DNA of 64,000 nucleotides from Rhodovastum atsumiense (GTDB taxonomy: Bacteria > Pseudomonadota > Alphaproteobacteria > Acetobacterales > Acetobacteraceae): the NCBI RefSeq assembly GCF_937425535.1, contig NZ_OW485601.1, positions 797,001 through 861,000 on the forward strand, in the 5' to 3' direction. Positions 4,232-13,198 of this stretch are shown here, one piece after another. The number at the start of each line of letters is the position of its first letter. Position 1 is the first letter of the stretch. The position numbers and the translations under genes were made by a program. Below the pieces are notes generated by a model, which ran no database searches, was not told where the DNA came from, and was given only the letters and a program-made list of their open reading frames with translations.

Positions 4232-5314
4232 ATGAAGCTGGTCATCTTCGGCCTGTCCGTCAGTTCCTCCTGGGGCAACGGCCATGCCGCGTTGTGGCGC
4301 GGACTGATCGGCGCGCTGCTGCGCGACGGACACCGGGTCGTGTTCTTCGAACGCGACGAGCCCTGGTATCGCTACAACCGCGACCTGCACGAACTGCCCG
4401 AAGGCGGCAGGCTGGTTTTGTACCGGCACTGGCAGGAAGTGGCCGGGCCGGCGCAGGCCGCGCTCGACGACGCCGATGCCGGCATGGTGACCTCCTACTG
4501 CCCGGACGGAGTGGCGGCCGCGCATCTGCTCTTGGACAGCCGCGCACGGGTGCGCTGCTTCTACGACCTCGATACGCCGGTGACGCTGGCGCAACTGGAA
4601 GCCGGCCAGACCGTTCCCTATCTGCTTCCGGAGGGGCTCGGCGGCTTCGACCTGGTGCTGAGCTTCACCGGCGGGCAGGCACTCGACGAGATACGGATAC
4701 GCCTGGGGGGAAGGCACGTGGCGCCGCTGTACGGGTCGGTCGATCCCGACCTGCACCGGCCGGCGGCGCCACGGCCACAATACCAGGCGGTGCTCTCCTG
4801 GCTCGGCACCTACGCCGAGGACCGGCAGGCAGCACTGGACGCGCTGTTCCTGCAGCCCGCGCGACGACGACCCGGGGATCGCTTCGTGTTGGCGGGCGCG
4901 CAGTACCCGGACGGTTTTCCCTGGACGGCCAACCTCTATTACGTGCGGCATCTGCCGCCATCAGAGCACGCGGCCTTCTACGCCTCGGCGCGGCTGACCC
5001 TGAACGTGACGCGCGGGGCGATGGCACGCATGGGATTCTGCCCGTCCGGACGGCTGTTCGAGGCCGCCGCCTGCGGCGCGCCGCTGCTCACCGATTCCTG
5101 GGAAGGGCTCGACCATTTCTTCACCCCGGGCGAGGAAGTCCTCGTGGCCGGCGACACCGCGACGGCGCTCGCGGCACTCGACACGCCGGCGGCGACGCTG
5201 GCCGCGATCGCACGACGGGCGCGCGAACGGACATTGGCGCAGCATTCGGCGACGCAGCGGGCCCGCGAACTGGTGGGGCTGCTGGCGCAGGCCGCGGCCC
5301 CGGCGGAGGCCTGA
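4232..5314 (+). CDS. CgeB-like glycosyltransferase
   Basis: A 360-residue protein that begins MKLVIFGLSVSSSWGNGHA, a GT-B-type N-terminal Rossmann start. It ends in a CgeB/DUF3880-like domain with LTLNVTRGAMARMGFCPSG, then LFEAAACGAPLLTD and HFFTPGEEVLVA, the usual donor-binding region. It should transfer a sugar from a nucleotide donor; the donor and acceptor are unknown. It is the first gene of a run continuing to 11520. The next gene begins five bases after its stop. The ATG at 4232 is preferred because it places the first beta strand at the terminus. The leader region 4006-4231 contains the divergent promoters. Confidence 0.82.
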   Translation: MKLVIFGLSVSSSWGNGHAALWRGLIGALLRDGHRVVFFERDEPWYRYNRDLHELPEGGRLVLYRHWQEVAGPAQAALDDADAGMVTSYCPDGVAAAHLLLDSRARVRCFYDLDTPVTLAQLEAGQTVPYLLPEGLGGFDLVLSFTGGQALDEIRIRLGGRHVAPLYGSVDPDLHRPAAPRPQYQAVLSWLGTYAEDRQAALDALFLQPARRRPGDRFVLAGAQYPDGFPWTANLYYVRHLPPSEHAAFYASARLTLNVTRGAMARMGFCPSGRLFEAAACGAPLLTDSWEGLDHFFTPGEEVLVAGDTATALAALDTPAATLAAIARRARERTLAQHSATQRARELVGLLAQAAAPAEA

Positions 5315-5319
5315 ACCGG

Positions 5320-6114
5320 ATGTGGGGCATCATCCCGGCCGCCGGGAACGGCACCCGCATCCAGCCTCTGGCTTTCTCGAAGGAATTGCTGCCGGTGGGC
5401 AGCCGCATCGATGACCGCGACACCGAACGCCCGCGCGCCATCAGCGAATACCTGGTCGAGCGCATGCTTGCCGCCGGTGCCGGCAAGCTCTGCTTCGTGA
5501 TCTCGCCCTGGAAATCCGACATCCCCCAATATTTCGGCGGCGCCTATGGCGAGGCGAGCATCGTCTACGCGGTGCAGGACGCGCCGCGCGGCCTCTGCGA
5601 CGCCATCTTCCGCGCCTTGCCGGTGGTGGCGGCCGACGAGGACGTGGTGATTGGCCTGCCCGACACGATCTGGTTCCCCGAGGACGCGCTGGCGCGCTTG
5701 CCGGCCGGGCGCTTCTCCTTCCTGCTGTTCCCGGTGGAGCGGCCCGAGTTGTTCGACGCGGTGGAGACCGACGCCGACGGGCGCGTGCGCGAGGTGGTGG
5801 TGAAGTCTCCACGCGCCCGCTCACACTGGATCTGGGGGGCGCTGCGACTGCCGGGGGCCGTGCTGCACGCCCTGCATGCGCTGTGGCAGGCCCGCGGACG
5901 CCAGGACGAATATCTCGGCACGCTGGTCAATGCCTGGCTTGCCGCCGGCGGCGAGGCCTTCGGCGTGCGCGCCGGCACCTCCTACGTGGATGTCGGCACG
6001 CTGCACGGCTGGAAGACGGCGATGGCACTGCTGGACGGCGGCACGCCGGCCGGGCCGGCCGCCTTCGCGGGCAAGCGCGCCGCTCCGCCCCGGCTGCCGG
6101 GGGCCCGGCCATGA
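5320..6114 (+). CDS. sugar-phosphate nucleotidyltransferase-like protein
   Basis: A 264-residue nucleotidyltransferase of the RmlA/GlmU superfamily. The N-terminus MWGIIPAAGNGTRIQPL carries the GxGTR nucleotide-binding loop, followed by FSKELLPVG in place of the common PKxxxPV motif. A typical metal-binding aspartate region (VVIGLPDTIW) follows. It would activate a sugar phosphate or polyol phosphate with an NTP. Given the inositol-phosphate synthase nearby, an activated inositol is one possible product, but an ordinary hexose is equally possible. It overlaps the following methyltransferase by ATGA. Confidence 0.85.
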   Translation: MWGIIPAAGNGTRIQPLAFSKELLPVGSRIDDRDTERPRAISEYLVERMLAAGAGKLCFVISPWKSDIPQYFGGAYGEASIVYAVQDAPRGLCDAIFRALPVVAADEDVVIGLPDTIWFPEDALARLPAGRFSFLLFPVERPELFDAVETDADGRVREVVVKSPRARSHWIWGALRLPGAVLHALHALWQARGRQDEYLGTLVNAWLAAGGEAFGVRAGTSYVDVGTLHGWKTAMALLDGGTPAGPAAFAGKRAAPPRLPGARP

Positions 6115-6884
6115 ACCCCACGCTGGCCTGGACCGAAGCACGCATCCGCGCCCGCGTGCGCGAACTCGGCCCCTGGTTCCACAACATGGAGCTGGGCGGC
6201 GTGCGCACGGCGCCGGAGCATTTCCTCGGCGACTATCCGAACGTCAAATGGCAGCGCTTCGCACCGGCATTGCCGCTGGACCTGAGCGGGCTGAGCGTGC
6301 TCGACATCGGCTGCAACGCCGGATTCTACAGCCTGGAAATGAAACGTCGCGGCGCGGCGCGGGTGCTCGGCATCGACAGCGATCCCGATTACCTGGCGCA
6401 GGCGCGCTTCGCCGCCGAGGTCAGCGGGCTCGCCGTCGAATACAGGCAGCTTTCGGTCTACGACGTGGGAGCGCTGCGCGAACGCTTCGACATCGTGCTG
6501 TTCATCGGGGTGCTGTACCACCTGCGCCACCCGCTGCTGGCGCTCGACCTGATCCACGCCCATGTCGCCCGCGACCTGCTGGTGTTCCAGTCGATGCAGC
6601 GCGGCAGCGCCGCCGCGCATGATCCGGGCGCCGACCACGACTTCACGGAAACCGAGATCTTCGACGATTCTGCCTGGCCCCGGCTGCATTTCGTCGAGCA
6701 CAGCTACGCCCATGATCCCACCAACTGGTGGGTGCCGAACCGCGCCTGTTCCGAGGCGATGCTGCGCAGCGCCGGCTTCATCATCGAACGCCACCCCGAG
6801 GACGAGGTGTTCATCTGCCGCCGGGTGGCACGCGACGCGGGCGAATGGGGGGCGGTCTATCCGGCGCGCGGGGAAGAACGATGA
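6111..6884 (+). CDS. SAM-dependent methyltransferase (Rta_06860/TIGR04290-like)
   Basis: A 257-residue class I methyltransferase. Motif I is VLDIGCNAGFYS, the acidic motif II is VLGIDSD, and the region after motif III is FDIVLFIGVLYHLRHPLLALD. The N-terminal segment LGPWFHNMELGGVRT and the C-terminal TNWWVPNRACSEAMLRSAGF resemble the tRNA cmo5U-carboxymethyltransferase-like group. Members of that group sit in glycan gene clusters and were given the TIGR04290 name; the family link is from memory. It probably methylates a sugar or the cluster's final product. ATG overlaps the preceding stop, and its own stop overlaps the next start by ATGA. Confidence 0.83.
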   Translation: MNPTLAWTEARIRARVRELGPWFHNMELGGVRTAPEHFLGDYPNVKWQRFAPALPLDLSGLSVLDIGCNAGFYSLEMKRRGAARVLGIDSDPDYLAQARFAAEVSGLAVEYRQLSVYDVGALRERFDIVLFIGVLYHLRHPLLALDLIHAHVARDLLVFQSMQRGSAAAHDPGADHDFTETEIFDDSAWPRLHFVEHSYAHDPTNWWVPNRACSEAMLRSAGFIIERHPEDEVFICRRVARDAGEWGAVYPARGEER

Positions 6885-7801
6885 TCGAAGCGGCGATGAT
6901 CTGGAACGAGCCCAACAACAAATCCCACTGGGATTTCGAGAACGATCCGGACTGGGGCTGCTTCGCGCGCATGGCAATCCTGGCCGCCCAGGCCATCGCC
7001 GCCGAGGCCCCGGGCCTGCCGCGCGTGCTCGGCGGCATCTCGCCGATCGATCCGGCGTTCATCCGGCTGATGGACCGGCAGGGCGTGCTCTCCCACATGG
7101 ATGCGGTCGCCGTGCACGGGTTTCCGCTCGACTGGAATCACTGGCTGATTCATGACTGGCCGGCGAAGCTCGACGAGATCCGCGCGGTGACCGCGCTGCC
7201 GATCTGGGTTTCCGAAGTCGGCGTCTCGACCTTTGGCGCCGAGGAAGTGCAGGACTGGGGGTTGCGCCGCAGCTTCGAGCTGCTGCGCGGACGGGCCCCG
7301 CGGATCCATTGGTACAGCCTGTTCGACCTGCCCGCCGCCTGGCCGGCGACGACACGCCACAAGGAAGCCGAAGGCAGCTCCTACTACCGGCATTTCCACA
7401 TGGGGCTGTTCGACGAACACAACCGTCCGAAGCTGGCGGCCCGCAGCTTCGCCGACTGTACCCCGGCGTTCGGCCTCTGCCAGTGGTTCCATTTCGAGGA
7501 CCCGCGGCTGGACGCGGCCATCGCGCGGATGCGCGAGCTGGGCGTCACCACGCTGCGCACGGGCCTGTCCTGGGCGGACTGGCTGCGGCCGAATGCCGAG
7601 GCCTGGTTCGACCGACAGATGCGCGCCCTGGAGGAATTCGACGTGACCCTGACCTTCTGCTTCACGCCCGAGGAAGAAGGCGTCTGGCCGCACTACACCG
7701 CCGTGCCGAAGGCGCCCGAACGTTTCGCCGAGTTCTGCGCGGCGATGATCCGCCGCTATGCACCGGGGCGAGCCCCGGCCGACATATTGGTGATGGAGTG
7801 A
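6881..7801 (+). CDS. glycosidase-like protein, apparently circularly permuted
   Basis: A 306-residue protein with clan GH-A features in an unusual order. It starts directly at the acid/base motif IWNEPNN (Glu10), followed by GGISPIDPAF, AVAVHGFP and IWVSEVGVST with the candidate nucleophile Glu112. After the last barrel-like strands (HWYSLFDLP) comes residue range ~180-306. This reads like the first strands of a family barrel (GVTTLRTGLSWADW, LTFCFTPEEEG, AEFCAAMIRRYAPG) that would normally precede the NEP motif. Both acids are present, so activity is plausible, perhaps as beta-xylosidase or transglycosidase. No signal peptide is seen. It overlaps both neighbours by 4 bp. Confidence 0.75.
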   Translation: MIEAAMIWNEPNNKSHWDFENDPDWGCFARMAILAAQAIAAEAPGLPRVLGGISPIDPAFIRLMDRQGVLSHMDAVAVHGFPLDWNHWLIHDWPAKLDEIRAVTALPIWVSEVGVSTFGAEEVQDWGLRRSFELLRGRAPRIHWYSLFDLPAAWPATTRHKEAEGSSYYRHFHMGLFDEHNRPKLAARSFADCTPAFGLCQWFHFEDPRLDAAIARMRELGVTTLRTGLSWADWLRPNAEAWFDRQMRALEEFDVTLTFCFTPEEEGVWPHYTAVPKAPERFAEFCAAMIRRYAPGRAPADILVME

Positions 7802-8871
7802 CGCAAGCAACAGAAGAGGCGCGACCGATCCGTTCGCCGGCGCGCATGACGATCGTCAGCGTGGCCTACCCGCTCGCACCGGTCGGACCCGATGCGGTCG
7901 GAGGCGTGGAACAGGTACTCCACACCCTCGACCGCGCCCTGGTGGCGGCGGGGCACCGCTCGATCGTGATCGCACGCGCGGATTCCCGGATCGCGGGAGA
8001 ACTGGTGCCGATCCCGGTCATGCCGGTGGATGAGGATTGCCGCGGCGCCGTGCACGCGACGGTGCGCGAGGCCCTCGCCGGCGTGATGGCGCAGGCCGAT
8101 GTCGTGCACATGCACGGGATCGACTTCGCCGCCACCCTGCCGCCGCCGGGACCACCCGTGCTGGCGACACTGCACCTGCCGCCATCCTGGTACCCACCGG
8201 CAGCCCTGGCACCGACACGGCCCGACACCTGGCTCAACTGCGTCTCCCTCTCGCAGCAGGAAACCTGCCCGCCCGGCGCGCCGCTGCTGGCGCCGGTGCC
8301 GAACGGCGTCGACGTGGCGACGCTGGGCGCGACCCGCCACGCGCGGCGGGGCTTCGCGCTGATGCTGGGCCGGATCTGCCCGGAAAAAGGCCAGCATCTG
8401 GCGCTGGCGGCAGCGCATGTCGCGGGCGTGCCGTTGCTGGTGGCGGGAACGGCCTTTCCCTATCCGTCCCATCTCGACTACCTCAACCAGCGGGTGCGCC
8501 CCTTGCTGGATCGGTGCCGGCGCTGGATCGGGCCACTTGGGATCGCGCGCAAGCGGCGATTGCTTGCCGCCGCGCACTGCGTGCTGCTGCCGAGCCTCGC
8601 CCCCGAAACCAGCTCGCTGGTGGCGATGGAAGCGGCAGCCTGCGGCACGCCCGTGGTGGCCTTCCCGGCCGGAGCGATCCCCGACATCGTCGAGCACAGC
8701 CGCACCGGATTCCTGGTGCGCGACGCCGCGGAGATGGCCGCCGCCATTTCCCGCGCCGGCGACATCGACCCGGAAGCCTGCCGTGCCGTGGCGCGCGCGC
8801 GGTTCGGCATGGACCGGATGGTGGCGGGATACCTCGCGCATTACCGCCAGCTCGCCACGATCCCGGCGTGA
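7798..8871 (+). CDS. glycosyltransferase family 4
   Basis: A GT-B glycosyltransferase of 357 residues from the GTG at 7798, which overlaps the previous stop as GTGA; an internal ATG at 7846 would give 341. The N-terminal YPLAPVGPDAVGGVEQVL is the usual GT4 glycine-rich acceptor loop. The donor site is LMLGRICPEKGQHLAL and then APETSSLVAMEAAACGTPVVAF, the EX7E-type motif. It then shows a typical IVEHSRTGFLV ending. Donor and acceptor are unknown. It belongs to the same translationally coupled string as its neighbours and overlaps the next gene by GTGA. Confidence 0.88.
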   Translation: MTQATEEARPIRSPARMTIVSVAYPLAPVGPDAVGGVEQVLHTLDRALVAAGHRSIVIARADSRIAGELVPIPVMPVDEDCRGAVHATVREALAGVMAQADVVHMHGIDFAATLPPPGPPVLATLHLPPSWYPPAALAPTRPDTWLNCVSLSQQETCPPGAPLLAPVPNGVDVATLGATRHARRGFALMLGRICPEKGQHLALAAAHVAGVPLLVAGTAFPYPSHLDYLNQRVRPLLDRCRRWIGPLGIARKRRLLAAAHCVLLPSLAPETSSLVAMEAAACGTPVVAFPAGAIPDIVEHSRTGFLVRDAAEMAAAISRAGDIDPEACRAVARARFGMDRMVAGYLAHYRQLATIPA

Positions 8872-9821
8872 CCTGCCGCCGGCACGGCGCGGCCACGCTC
8901 TCCACCGAATGCCTGGACGACCCCGCCGCGCTCGGCGAACCCTGGCAGCATCTGTGGCGGCGGGTGCGTGCGCCGTTCGCGGCTCCTGCCTGGGTGCTGG
9001 CGTGGTGGCGTTGGTTCGGCACCACGCGCGCCCGGGTGGCGGTGCTGCGGGACGGGACGGACCTGCTCGGTGTGCTGCCGCTCTACGAATTGCCGGAGGC
9101 GGGCAAGATCCTGCCGATCGGGGCGGGGCTTGCGGATTTCCAGGACGCCCTGCTCGCCCCCGAGGCCCCGGCCGACGCGGCGGAGCGGCTGTTGCGCACC
9201 GCCCTCGCCGGTGCCTCCCTGCCCTGCCATCTCTGCGACCTGCCGCCCGGCGCGGCGCTGCGCGACGCGGCGCCGCCGGAGGGCTGGCGGACGGACCTGC
9301 GCAAGAGCGATCCCTGCCCGCTGCTGCGCCTGCCCGCCGACGTGCCGCCGGGCCAGCAGCGCAAATTGCGGATGGCGCGGCACCGTGCCGCACGGGCGGG
9401 CGGCTGGTCGATGGAGGAAGCGGATGCCACGGGGCTCAAGATGCTGCTGTGGCTGCACGCCGCCCGCTGGTGCGATGGTGGCGTGCTGGCCGACGCGCGC
9501 GTCCACGGTTTCCTGCAGGACGCCGCGCCAGCACTGATACGGGAGGGCGCGGCGCGACTGTTCCTGCTGCGGCTTGGCGGCGCGCCGGCCGCCGCCTGCC
9601 TAGCCCTGGTCGCCCCCGGGCAGTTGCTGCTCTACATGCAGGGCTACGATCCCACCTACCGCTTCGAGAGCCCGGGCACCTTGCTGCTCGGGGCCATCCT
9701 GGAGCACGCGACCGCTGCCGGCCTGCGCGAGCTGCATCTGCTGCGCGGCGACGAAGCCTATAAGCGGAGCTGGGGTGCGGTGCCGGTGCGCAACGCACTC
9801 CGCGTGCTGACACCGCCATGA
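8868..9821 (+). CDS. GNAT/BioF2-like (CelD-type) acyltransferase
   Basis: A 317-residue protein resembling the BioF2-like/CelD group of the GNAT superfamily. The features are PAWVLAWWRWFG near the N-terminus, DLRKSDPCPLLRLP in the middle, a basic helix QQRKLRMARHRAARAGG, and the late segments FLLRLGGAPAAACLAL and YDPTYRFESPGTLLLGAILEHA. It ends in a KRSWGAVPVRN segment typical of the fold. Members are found in polysaccharide clusters, where they probably acylate sugars. The GTG start overlaps the preceding stop by 4 bp, and its stop overlaps the next gene as ATGA. The fold assignment is fairly firm; the substrate is unknown. Confidence 0.78.
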   Translation: MTCRRHGAATLSTECLDDPAALGEPWQHLWRRVRAPFAAPAWVLAWWRWFGTTRARVAVLRDGTDLLGVLPLYELPEAGKILPIGAGLADFQDALLAPEAPADAAERLLRTALAGASLPCHLCDLPPGAALRDAAPPEGWRTDLRKSDPCPLLRLPADVPPGQQRKLRMARHRAARAGGWSMEEADATGLKMLLWLHAARWCDGGVLADARVHGFLQDAAPALIREGAARLFLLRLGGAPAAACLALVAPGQLLLYMQGYDPTYRFESPGTLLLGAILEHATAAGLRELHLLRGDEAYKRSWGAVPVRNALRVLTPP

Positions 9822-10615
9822 CGGCGCTGGACGCATGGCGCGCCGGTCGGATCTCCGCCGAAGTCGCGGTGGCGCGACTGGTGCTGGCGGGCGAGCAGGA
9901 CGCGATCGCCGCCGTACCGGAGTTGGCCAGTGTGGCGAAGCGGCACGGGCTGGCGGCGTTGCAGGCGGTCCGGACGGCGGTGAACCACGCCATGCCGGCC
10001 ACGCCGGCCGCGATCGGGCGCATGTTCGATGCGGCGGTGGCAGCGAGCCCGGAGGCGAGCGTCGCCGCCTGCTCGCTCGGCGACGCCACGCTGCTGGCGC
10101 GGGCGAGCGCGGAACTGCGCTCCTGGCTGTGCCATGAGGACCTGCTGCAGCCAGGGGCCACGGTGCTGGATCTGGGCTGCGGCATCGGCCGTATGACGGC
10201 AACACTCGCACCGGTCGCGACATCGGTACTGGGGCTGGACGTCTCTCCCGGCATGATCGCGACGGCACGGCAGCGCTGCACCGTGGCCAATGCACGCTTC
10301 GCGCTGACCGATGGCACGGGACTGGGAGAGTTGCCCGATGCCGGCTTCGATCTTGTGCTCGCAGCCGACAGCTTCCCCTATCTGGTGCAGGCGGGGGTGG
10401 CGGAGCGGCACGTCATCGACGCCGCGCGGGTGCTGCGGCCGGGCGGAGCGCTGGTGGTGCTGAACTGGTCCTATCGCAGTCTCGATCAGGATCGCGCCGA
10501 AGCCGACACATGGGCGGCACGCCATGGCTTCGCGCTGCGCGCCGCCGGCACGGCCCCGTTCAGCCTGTGGGATGGCACGGCCTTCGTCCTGATCGCAGCG
10601 CGCCGTTCCTGCTGA
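9818..10615 (+). CDS. class I SAM-dependent methyltransferase
   Basis: A 265-residue methyltransferase with a 110-residue N-terminal extension of helical character and then a clear SAM domain. Motif I is TVLDLGCGIGRMTATLAP, motif II VLGLDVSPGMI, with FDLVLAADSFPYL and VLRPGGALVVLNWSY later. It is the second methyltransferase of the cluster, so the final product may be doubly methylated. It is coupled to the preceding gene by ATGA; the next start lies 20 bases past its stop. Confidence 0.85.
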   Translation: MTALDAWRAGRISAEVAVARLVLAGEQDAIAAVPELASVAKRHGLAALQAVRTAVNHAMPATPAAIGRMFDAAVAASPEASVAACSLGDATLLARASAELRSWLCHEDLLQPGATVLDLGCGIGRMTATLAPVATSVLGLDVSPGMIATARQRCTVANARFALTDGTGLGELPDAGFDLVLAADSFPYLVQAGVAERHVIDAARVLRPGGALVVLNWSYRSLDQDRAEADTWAARHGFALRAAGTAPFSLWDGTAFVLIAARRSC

Positions 10616-11520: not shown

Positions 11521-12113
11521 CCCGGCGGCAGGTTGAGCGCCTCGACCCGCACATCCGCCTCGTACAGCACCAGCACGCTGCGATGCGCCGGGGCGATGTC
11601 GAAGCGCCTTGCCAGATCGAGCGGCACCGCCAGGAAATGCGCGAGCACCGCTCGCAGCACGTCGCCATGGCTGACGATGGCGATGTCCGCATCCGGATGC
11701 AGGGCGGCCCACCGGCACACCGCGGCAACGGCACGCGCCTGCACGGCAAGCGCCGTCTCTCCCCCTGGAATCGGCGCGGTGCTGCGGAAGACATTGAAGG
11801 CATGCCAGTCCGGGGAACCGTCGAGACTGGTGAAGGCGGCACCGGTCCAGTCGCCGAAATCGAGTTCCTCGAAGCCGGGATCGACCTGCACGGTCAGTCC
11901 CTGGCGCGCGGCCAAAGGCCCGGCGGTCTGCACCGCACGCTCGCGGGGGCTGGACACCACCGCCGCAAGCCGCGTGGCTGCGAGCCCGGCGGCAACTGCC
12001 CCGGCCTGGCGCCGGCCATGCGCGTTCAGAGGCACGCCCGGGGCACGGCCGGCCAGGGCATGGCCGACCATGTCGGTCTCGCCGTGGCGGATCAGATGGA
12101 AGGTGACGGGCAT
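11517..12113 (-). CDS. histidine phosphatase family protein
   Basis: A 198-residue member of the phosphoglycerate-mutase-like histidine phosphatases. The phospho-acceptor motif is [10 protein letters not shown] at residues 5-14, followed by [11 protein letters not shown], the acidic [11 protein letters not shown], and the second catalytic histidine in [14 protein letters not shown]. The start overlaps the end of the inositol-phosphate synthase gene by 22 bp, so the two are co-translated. Because the synthase makes inositol 1-phosphate, this enzyme may remove the phosphate to give free inositol; that is inference from position only. The usual inositol monophosphatase belongs to another family. 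Confidence 0.87.
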
Positions 12114-13198
12114 TCGCCGCGGATGAAGGCTTCCGTGCGCAGCCGGGCCTCCTCATCTGGCATTTGCTGTGGAGGGCTTTTCATGAACCACGCCGCGGGA
12201 CCGGTGAGCGCGCCGCCAATTCCGCGGTCGAGCGCGAGCCTGGCGCAGCGCACGGCATCGATGACCACTCCGGCGGAATTGGGCGAATCCCAAACTTCCA
12301 GTTTCATCTCACAGGCAATCGGCACATTGCCGAAGGCCGTGCCTTCCAGGCGGATATAGGCCCATTTGCGGTCATCGAGCCAGGGCACGTGGTCGGAGGG
12401 GCCGACATGCACCGCCCCTGCCGGCAGTTCGGCGCCGATCTGGCTGGTGACCGCCCGGGTCTTGGAGAGCTTCTTCGATTCCAGCCGCTCGCGCTCCAGC
12501 ATGTTGAGGAAGTCGGTGTTGCCGCCGAAATTGAGCTGGTAGGTACGGTCAAGGCGCAAGCCGCGCTCGCGGAACAAGGCCACGAGCGCGCGATGCAGGA
12601 TGGTGGCACCGAGCTGGCTTTTGATGTCGTCGCCGATCAGCGGCAGGCCGCGCGCAGCGAAGCGCCGGCGCCACGCCGGATCGGAGGCGATGAAGACGGG
12701 AATGCAATTGACGAAGGCACAGCCCGCGGCCAGCGCCTGTTCGGCATAGAAGCGCGTGGCATGCTCCGAGCCAACCGGAAGGTAGGATACCACCACCTCC
12801 GCCCTCGCCTCGCGCAGCCCCCGGGCGACATCGACCGGTTGCTCCGGCGCCTCGGCGACGACACCTTCGAGATAGCGGCCCAGGCCATCGAGCGTGGGGC
12901 CGCGGCGGACAGTGACGCCGCTGGCAGGCGGCGGGGCGAAGTTTCTCGTGTTGTTGGGGGCCGCGAGGACCGCTTCCGAGAGATCACGACCAACCTTGCC
13001 GAGGGCGACATCGAAGGCGGCGACGAAAGCGATGTCGCGGACATGATAGCCGCCAAGGTCGACATGCATGAGGCCCGGCACCGGCTCGGCTGCGGATGCA
13101 TCGCGATAGAAATGCCGCCCCTGCACCAGCGAAGAAGCACAGTTGCCGACGCCGACGATCGCCACCCGTATCTCTGCCAAGCCCTGCCCTCCGTGCAC
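12092..13198 (-). CDS. ino1: inositol-3-phosphate synthase
   Basis: A 368-residue myo-inositol-1-phosphate synthase that converts glucose 6-phosphate to inositol phosphate with NAD. The motifs are [16 protein letters not shown] (Rossmann), [54 protein letters not shown] (conserved Asp, Lys) and [12 protein letters not shown]. The length matches the short actinobacterial/archaeal form rather than the long eukaryotic one. It is the first gene of the inositol pair; 74 bp upstream of its start lies a hairpin repeat. The inositol probably feeds the glycoconjugate cluster that faces it. The start could also be a few codons further downstream. Confidence 0.93.

Follow-up and report, generated by a model that had tools for sequence, protein, structure and literature searches.

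A putative circularly permuted clan GH-A-like glycosidase in a conserved glycan-biosynthesis cluster of Rhodovastum atsumiense

The window analysed here is a stretch of 64,000 nucleotides of Rhodovastum atsumiense DNA (contig NZ_OW485601.1, positions 797,001 to 861,000) and includes a run of genes with predicted roles in glycan synthesis. The gene of interest and its neighbours are as follows, with the supporting evidence in brackets.

4232..5314, + strand: glycosyltransferase (Pfam Glyco_trans_1_2), presumably CgeB-like
5320..6114, + strand: nucleotidyltransferase (Pfam NTP_transferase)
6111..6884, + strand: TIGR04290 family methyltransferase, overlapping the glycosidase gene by 4 bases (NCBIfam, 378 bits, cut-off 300)
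6881..7801, + strand: gene of the putative circularly permuted GH-A-like glycosidase, 306 aa (homologues, rotated profile, model)
6881..7453, + strand: residues 1-191, beta4 to beta8, which come last in an ordinary barrel (alignment to ordinary-order relatives, model strands)
6908..6910, + strand: Glu10 codon, putative acid/base on beta4 in WNEPNN (invariant; aligns with a PslG catalytic Glu)
7214..7216, + strand: Glu112 codon, putative nucleophile on beta7 (invariant; aligns with a PslG catalytic Glu)
7454..7762, + strand: residues 192-294, beta1 to beta3 and helix alpha3, which come first in an ordinary barrel (best rotation at cuts 190-196, model strands)
7763..7798, + strand: residues 295-306, variable tail ending in DILVME, outside the conserved core (homologue tails, pLDDT)
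7846..8871, + strand: group 1 glycosyltransferase (Pfam)
8868..9821, + strand: GNAT acetyltransferase (Pfam Acetyltransf_6)
9818..10615, + strand: second methyltransferase (Pfam)
12095..13147, - strand: inositol-3-phosphate synthase-like gene, a recurrent neighbour, start approximate (Pfam Inos-1-P_synth)

The inositol-3-phosphate synthase-like gene scores 517 bits against TIGR03450, below the cut-off of 638. Elsewhere in the window, the ORFs between 33185 and 47803 presumably encode a uronate isomerase, a hexuronate oxidoreductase and a pyruvate formate-lyase with its activase.

The 306-residue product of the ORF at 6881-7801 (+) has the N-terminus MIEAAMIWNEPNNK (also given as MIEAAMIWNEPNN). 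An initial annotation had described it as a barrel of clan GH-A opened immediately ahead of the catalytic acid, with the missing front strands in its second half. The landmarks on which this description rested are all present in the translation, with Glu10 (in WNEPNN) and Glu112 at the positions claimed for them and with GVTTLRTGLSWADW, LTFCFTPEEEG, AEFCAAMIRRYAPG and the terminal DILVME. An ATGA sequence holds both the start codon and the stop codon of the methyltransferase gene just upstream. A scan of a genome collection returned at least 581 confirmed relatives among at least 596 stretches, of which the best 80 were kept for analysis. The exact 4-base overlap with the upstream ORF recurs in 51 of these 80 and the distance to the upstream ORF end stays within 30 bases in 74. 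The alignment opens on M or V (GTG) in 79, and in L014 a start is found one residue before it. In-frame translation 5' of the start has no conservation visible by eye among the 80 homologues, and a longer conserved N-terminus supplying the missing strands, which had been weighed as the alternative to a permutation, is absent from all 80 homologues examined. Judged from these alignments, the start of the permuted protein is real. The terminal DILVME, by contrast, is not conserved: the tails after the last RY vary from 1 to 42 residues, 76 of 80 are distinct, none of the 80 contains ILV, LVME, LWN or WNE, and residues 301-306 have a pLDDT of 41 in the AlphaFold model. A reading of DILVME as the remnant of a duplicated beta4 was dropped, as no such piece occurs in the 80 homologue tails.

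Relatives in which the two parts of the protein stand in the opposite order are encoded in other genomes. Of 299 genomes searched in the phylum, 13 had a match, made up of nine permuted forms (the window's own included) and four others. Genome G265 encodes an ordinary-order protein in a single frame of 784 aa, in which the counterpart of residues 195-294 is followed directly by that of residues 7-191 and then by an SDR domain. A PslG-like protein of G190 has the same swap at lower similarity, with the counterpart of residues 202-293 before that of residues 2-194 (E 0.02 and 8e-9). When 385 genomes of the class were searched with the G265 barrel, 14 had a match and six further full-length ordinary-order proteins were obtained in frames of 703 to 1104 codons, the SDR fusion being present in 6/6 translations. 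A sample of 100 relatives held 13 permuted and four ordinary forms, two of the latter being new (G709 and G711, with frames of 703 and 688 codons according to the search rows). These genome counts come from drawn samples that overlap between searches. The full-length ordinary form is found in nine genomes, and its catalytic residues were read in seven. A natural circular permutation calls for a homologue with swapped order in one chain, and G265 and six genomes carry such a homologue in full. The ordinary relatives read ...ADFVDHVLTRHGRHFPRIELWNEPNN..., so that the homologue of the window protein's end directly adjoins the homologue of its start, just as the initial annotation had expected when it wrote that such an end runs into WNEPNN.

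The GH-SDR fusions of Alphaproteobacteria resemble the permuted family in sequence, with a mean identity of approximately 34% and 45 positions invariant in both, and differ from it in their ordinary strand order and in the SDR domain fused at their C-terminus. A Pfam scan of seven ordinary sisters gave no relevant match. None of the nine genomes with the ordinary form yielded a permuted copy in these searches, four of the nine having been searched with an ordinary-order query only. G619 encodes a permuted copy (L126) together with an SDR-fused ordinary barrel that lacks the WNEPNN and nucleophile motifs (L101/L127, C1:4041903-4042667), and G484 has a permuted copy and an ordinary fragment at a contig end. 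Because both forms are present in G619 and G484, they are not strictly exclusive. A possible account of the pair in G619 is a hand-over of catalysis.

The position of the junction can be read from a rotation scan, in which the alignment of permuted proteins (A1, 57 rows, consisting of the window protein and 56 of the 80 loci) was cut at 36 points, the two parts were swapped and the profile was rebuilt each time, with the ordinary relatives and 220 shuffled sequences as targets. Each of the seven ordinary sisters scores best at cuts 190-196, rising from 90-115 bits in native order to 140-172 bits at the best cut (112 to 172 for L098), and has its lowest scores at cuts around 20-40. The PslG-like proteins L092 and L093, to which the permuted family is approximately 28% identical, rise from 28 to 52 and from 25 to 53 bits with a plateau from about 186 to 200; the outgroups L091 (35 to 58 bits) and L111 (36 to 44 bits) gain along broad plateaus from which no cut can be placed. 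The shuffled controls score at most 1.9 bits and, set against the rise in 7/7 ordinary relatives, they exclude chance.

A rotated alignment (A2) was made from 10 of 14 rotated sequences, and in hhalign it extends over 280 columns (E 4.1e-45), against 180 columns (E 3.5e-30) for the 57-row native alignment. In searches of the PDB, the rotated 10-row profile finds PslG of Pseudomonas aeruginosa, presumably a GH39 member, in one collinear stretch (E 1.4e-11), while the native-order 57-row profile finds it in two swapped stretches (E 1e-7) that jointly cover one PslG barrel and do not overlap. PslG, of which 5bx9 is a structure, is thus the best solved relative for rotated and native profiles alike. 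Since the rotated alignment has 10 rows and the native one 57 in these PDB and hhalign runs, the rotation scan is the fair control. The initial annotation had named GH39, GH5 and GH30 barrels for comparison; the nearest solved structure is PslG, GH39 beta-xylosidases match the rotated profile only weakly around WNEPN (E ~0.06, partial and non-significant), and no GH5 or GH30 chain is named among its 10 PDB matches.

The AlphaFold model built with 57 sequences is a single domain (mean pLDDT 88.6, pTM 0.89) with exactly eight strands at residues 4-7, 48-53, 75-80, 108-113, 142-145, 198-200, 224-230 and 254-260 and helices between them, which predicts the (beta/alpha)8 barrel of clan GH-A; the two separate domains that could have replaced it are not seen. 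By alignment to the ordinary relatives, these strands are beta4 to beta8 followed by beta1 to beta3, and the last helix (279-293) is alpha3. In strand content the model matches the unpermuted relatives, and the two lines of evidence support a barrel of clan GH-A that was opened immediately ahead of the catalytic acid. As its order is beta4-beta8, beta1-beta3, and the clan runs from beta1 to beta8 from N- to C-terminus, the window protein is filed as a permuted variant of clan GH-A, outside ordinary membership. Foldseek, which depends on strand order, gave no good match to the PDB among the 50 matches listed (best TMq 0.47), a poor result that fits a permutation of the modelled fold and is no proof of one. 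Residues 151-170 are poorly modelled (blocks with pLDDT 61 and 50) and yet mostly invariant. The segment encoded by 7334-7405 (residues 152-175) has a nearly invariant W-ATTRH-EAEGSSYYRHF, in place of which the ordinary sisters are shorter and read QEG..FD.RHYH; it is perhaps a substrate lid.

Clan GH-A enzymes have an Arg on beta2, an Asn-Glu pair on beta4 whose Glu is the acid/base, and a nucleophile Glu on beta7. In the permuted proteins N9-E10 on beta4 and E112 on beta7 are invariant, and Glu10, Glu112 and the surrounding active-site residues are invariant in the 57 aligned permuted members. A wider comparison of 59 permuted, six intact ordinary and four outgroup proteins leaves W8, N9, E10, N12, H79, P82, W109, E112, G114, R226 and W231 invariant. 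Counted on the alignment, the partners of E10 and E112 in the crystallised PslG chain are residues 139 and 250, which, given an offset of 26, would be E165 and E276. An excerpt of PMC9075953 names E165 and E276 as key catalytic residues of PslG, so that the window protein and PslG would have an aligned catalytic pair.

In family libraries the window protein scores 13.6 bits against PF11790 (Glyco_hydro_cc), or 15.1 bits when rotated, with a gathering cut-off of 21 bits. Among native-order members, 56/57 have a PF11790 match of some strength (best E 1.5e-6), and some probably pass its cut-off; all ten rotated members match (best E 2.7e-5), with no clear gain from rotation. These 56 matches speak against a family that libraries fail to recognise. 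An NCBIfam scan of the window protein gave no match. Pfam Glyco_hydro_39 matches 1/57 native-order members, at E 0.11, and 0/10 rotated ones, which does not place the family in GH39. Homologues of Sinorhizobium meliloti are called beta-xylosidase where annotated, a name that is not supported as an indication of their substrate.

The neighbourhood of the permuted gene was counted in loci longer than 6000 bases (87, including the first 16 kb of the window). In 68 of the 81 loci that contain it, the window included, the gene lies directly 3' of a TIGR04290 methyltransferase gene (counted by eye), and its recurrent partners are genes for Glyco_trans_1_2, nucleotidyltransferase, group 1 glycosyltransferase, GNAT acetyltransferase, a second methyltransferase and inositol-3-phosphate synthase. 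The last of these is present in 61/87 scanned loci, and its recurrence hints at an inositol-containing product of the cluster. The clusters of the GH-SDR fusions resemble those of the permuted gene in having SDR2, three Glyco_trans_1_2 genes and often TIGR04290, and differ in that an inositol-phosphate synthase gene is found in 0/6 stretches. In 8/80 loci, stand-alone SDR genes close to the permuted gene share 50-60% identity with the SDR domain of G265, and a fragment of a G265-type SDR lies at one end of L041. On pSymB of S. meliloti 1021 the cluster has the same SDR (71% identical) and a second SDR (75%), and this pair adjoins three Glyco_trans_1_2 genes and an inositol-phosphate synthase gene. 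No such SDR pair occurs in the first 16 kb of the window. This absence, along with the lack of inositol-phosphate synthase in the six ordinary-form stretches, is a reason not to equate the two types of cluster outright.

The permuted family is strongly conserved, with a mean identity of 73.5% (range 57.9-100%) among 59 sequences. By record title the best 80 loci are mostly from Alphaproteobacteria, a few being from Ramlibacter, Steroidobacteraceae, Sorangium, Kofleriaceae, Bryobacteraceae and Acidiferrales, and the permuted form is also present in the laboratory symbiont S. meliloti 1021, on pSymB at NC_003078 257009-257893. None of six genomes of the same genus as the window (G654-G659) matches either form of the enzyme. 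This patchy presence and the spread over several phyla suggest horizontal transfer with loss. As the order is ordinary in the sister family and in PslG, the permuted order is probably the derived one. A tree of 70 rotated sequences was computed from A1, L088 and L089, six intact ordinary proteins, one degenerate one and four outgroups; L097, a near copy of L096, was left out, which is why six of the seven intact ordinary proteins appear. The permuted proteins form one group with moderate support (89 unrooted, 65 re-rooted), and the simplest reading of this tree would be a single permutation event. The loci read, outside any dedicated search, include no tandem or duplicated intermediate. Domain atrophy of the kind reported for GH10, for which part of PMC4432964 was the source, was rejected as a rival reading, as strands are lost there and are moved in the permuted glycosidase.

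Taken jointly, the protein is read as a circularly permuted clan GH-A-like barrel glycosidase or transglycosidase that is cytoplasmic and belongs to a conserved glycan-biosynthesis cluster, with a probability of roughly 85%. Seen on its own, the window protein starts oddly and reaches its Pfam family only below threshold, which might point to a gene that is truncated, wrongly assembled or wrongly annotated, with its true front end either lost or overlooked. The chance of this is negligible, and the homologues already refute it: all 80 have the same start and 51 of them the 4-base upstream overlap, the strong conservation of the family is not that of a broken gene, and the front strands are found at the C-terminal side. 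It is also highly improbable that the protein consists of the back half of a GH-A barrel joined to a second domain that merely resembles the front half. The native-order profile does align to PslG as two stretches, as such a two-part protein would; these are, however, swapped, non-overlapping parts of one PslG barrel to which the rotated profile aligns collinearly, both parts are contiguous in the ordinary sisters, and the model gives a single eight-stranded domain with a pTM of 0.89.

A different question is whether a genuine permuted barrel might serve the cluster as a non-catalytic binding or regulatory protein. The ordinary sister L101 of G619 lost both its WNEPNN and its nucleophile motif, so that such forms can persist, but the invariance of Glu10, Glu112 and the residues around them throughout the aligned permuted members makes this role distinctly unlikely for the window protein.

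For the permuted glycosidase, comparison of the sequences documents the start, the rotated order, the homology, the conserved catalytic residues and the neighbourhood, and the single barrel is predicted by the model. In the proposed course of events, the original C- and N-termini would have been connected through a short linker near residue 192 and the chain opened anew between alpha3 and beta4, immediately ahead of the catalytic acid, leaving a stand-alone protein coupled to the methyltransferase by the 4-base overlap. The enzyme would most likely be a retaining beta-glycosidase or transglycosidase of the cytoplasm, with Glu10 as acid/base and Glu112 as nucleophile. The N-terminus of the window protein is strand beta4 and carries no visible signal peptide, and the sister form is fused to a presumably cytoplasmic SDR, so that a cytoplasmic enzyme acting during synthesis is suggested. 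It may trim or remodel a glycan or glycolipid intermediate of its cluster, as PslG may in Psl synthesis. Excerpts of PMC9075953 place the PslG gene in the psl polysaccharide-synthesis cluster with a role in Psl synthesis, and the protein chiefly at the inner membrane, a portion being periplasmic. PslG differs from the window protein in this location and in its ordinary strand order, and no sign of membrane binding was seen in the window protein. A more specific version is speculative and unlikely, namely that the enzyme is a cytoplasmic biosynthetic transglycosidase and no degrading hydrolase, acting on an inositol- or lipid-linked intermediate, that the ordinary SDR-fused form is exchangeable with it within one pathway, and that the permutation was kept for the freedom from the SDR and the coupling to the methyltransferase that it brought.

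Few catalytic barrels are known to have undergone circular permutation in nature, and GH70 is one of them. Its order relative to GH13, as given in an excerpt of PMC11046441, is alpha3-beta4-...-beta8-beta1-beta2-beta3, and non-permuted GH70 forms still exist according to part of PMC11299179. GH70 and the permuted GH-A family thus share a natural circular permutation of a glycosidase barrel at nearly the same cut point, the GH70 chain starting with alpha3 and the permuted GH-A chain having alpha3 last, which places its cut one helix later. GH70 enzymes differ in belonging to clan GH-H and in being large, multidomain and extracellular. In the open-licence literature of PubMed Central, judged mostly from listings, no permuted clan GH-A glycosidase and no report on this family was found, which is no proof of absence. 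Profiles and fold searches that depend on order blur the permuted family, as in the case of the window protein, which stays under the Pfam cut-off and matches nothing in NCBIfam. The repetition of nearly the cut point of GH70 in another clan hints that the alpha3/beta4 boundary may be a preferred opening site, an idea drawn from these two cases. As both chain orders have been kept as sister families in similar clusters, the origin of the permutation, its folding and its functional effect become testable.
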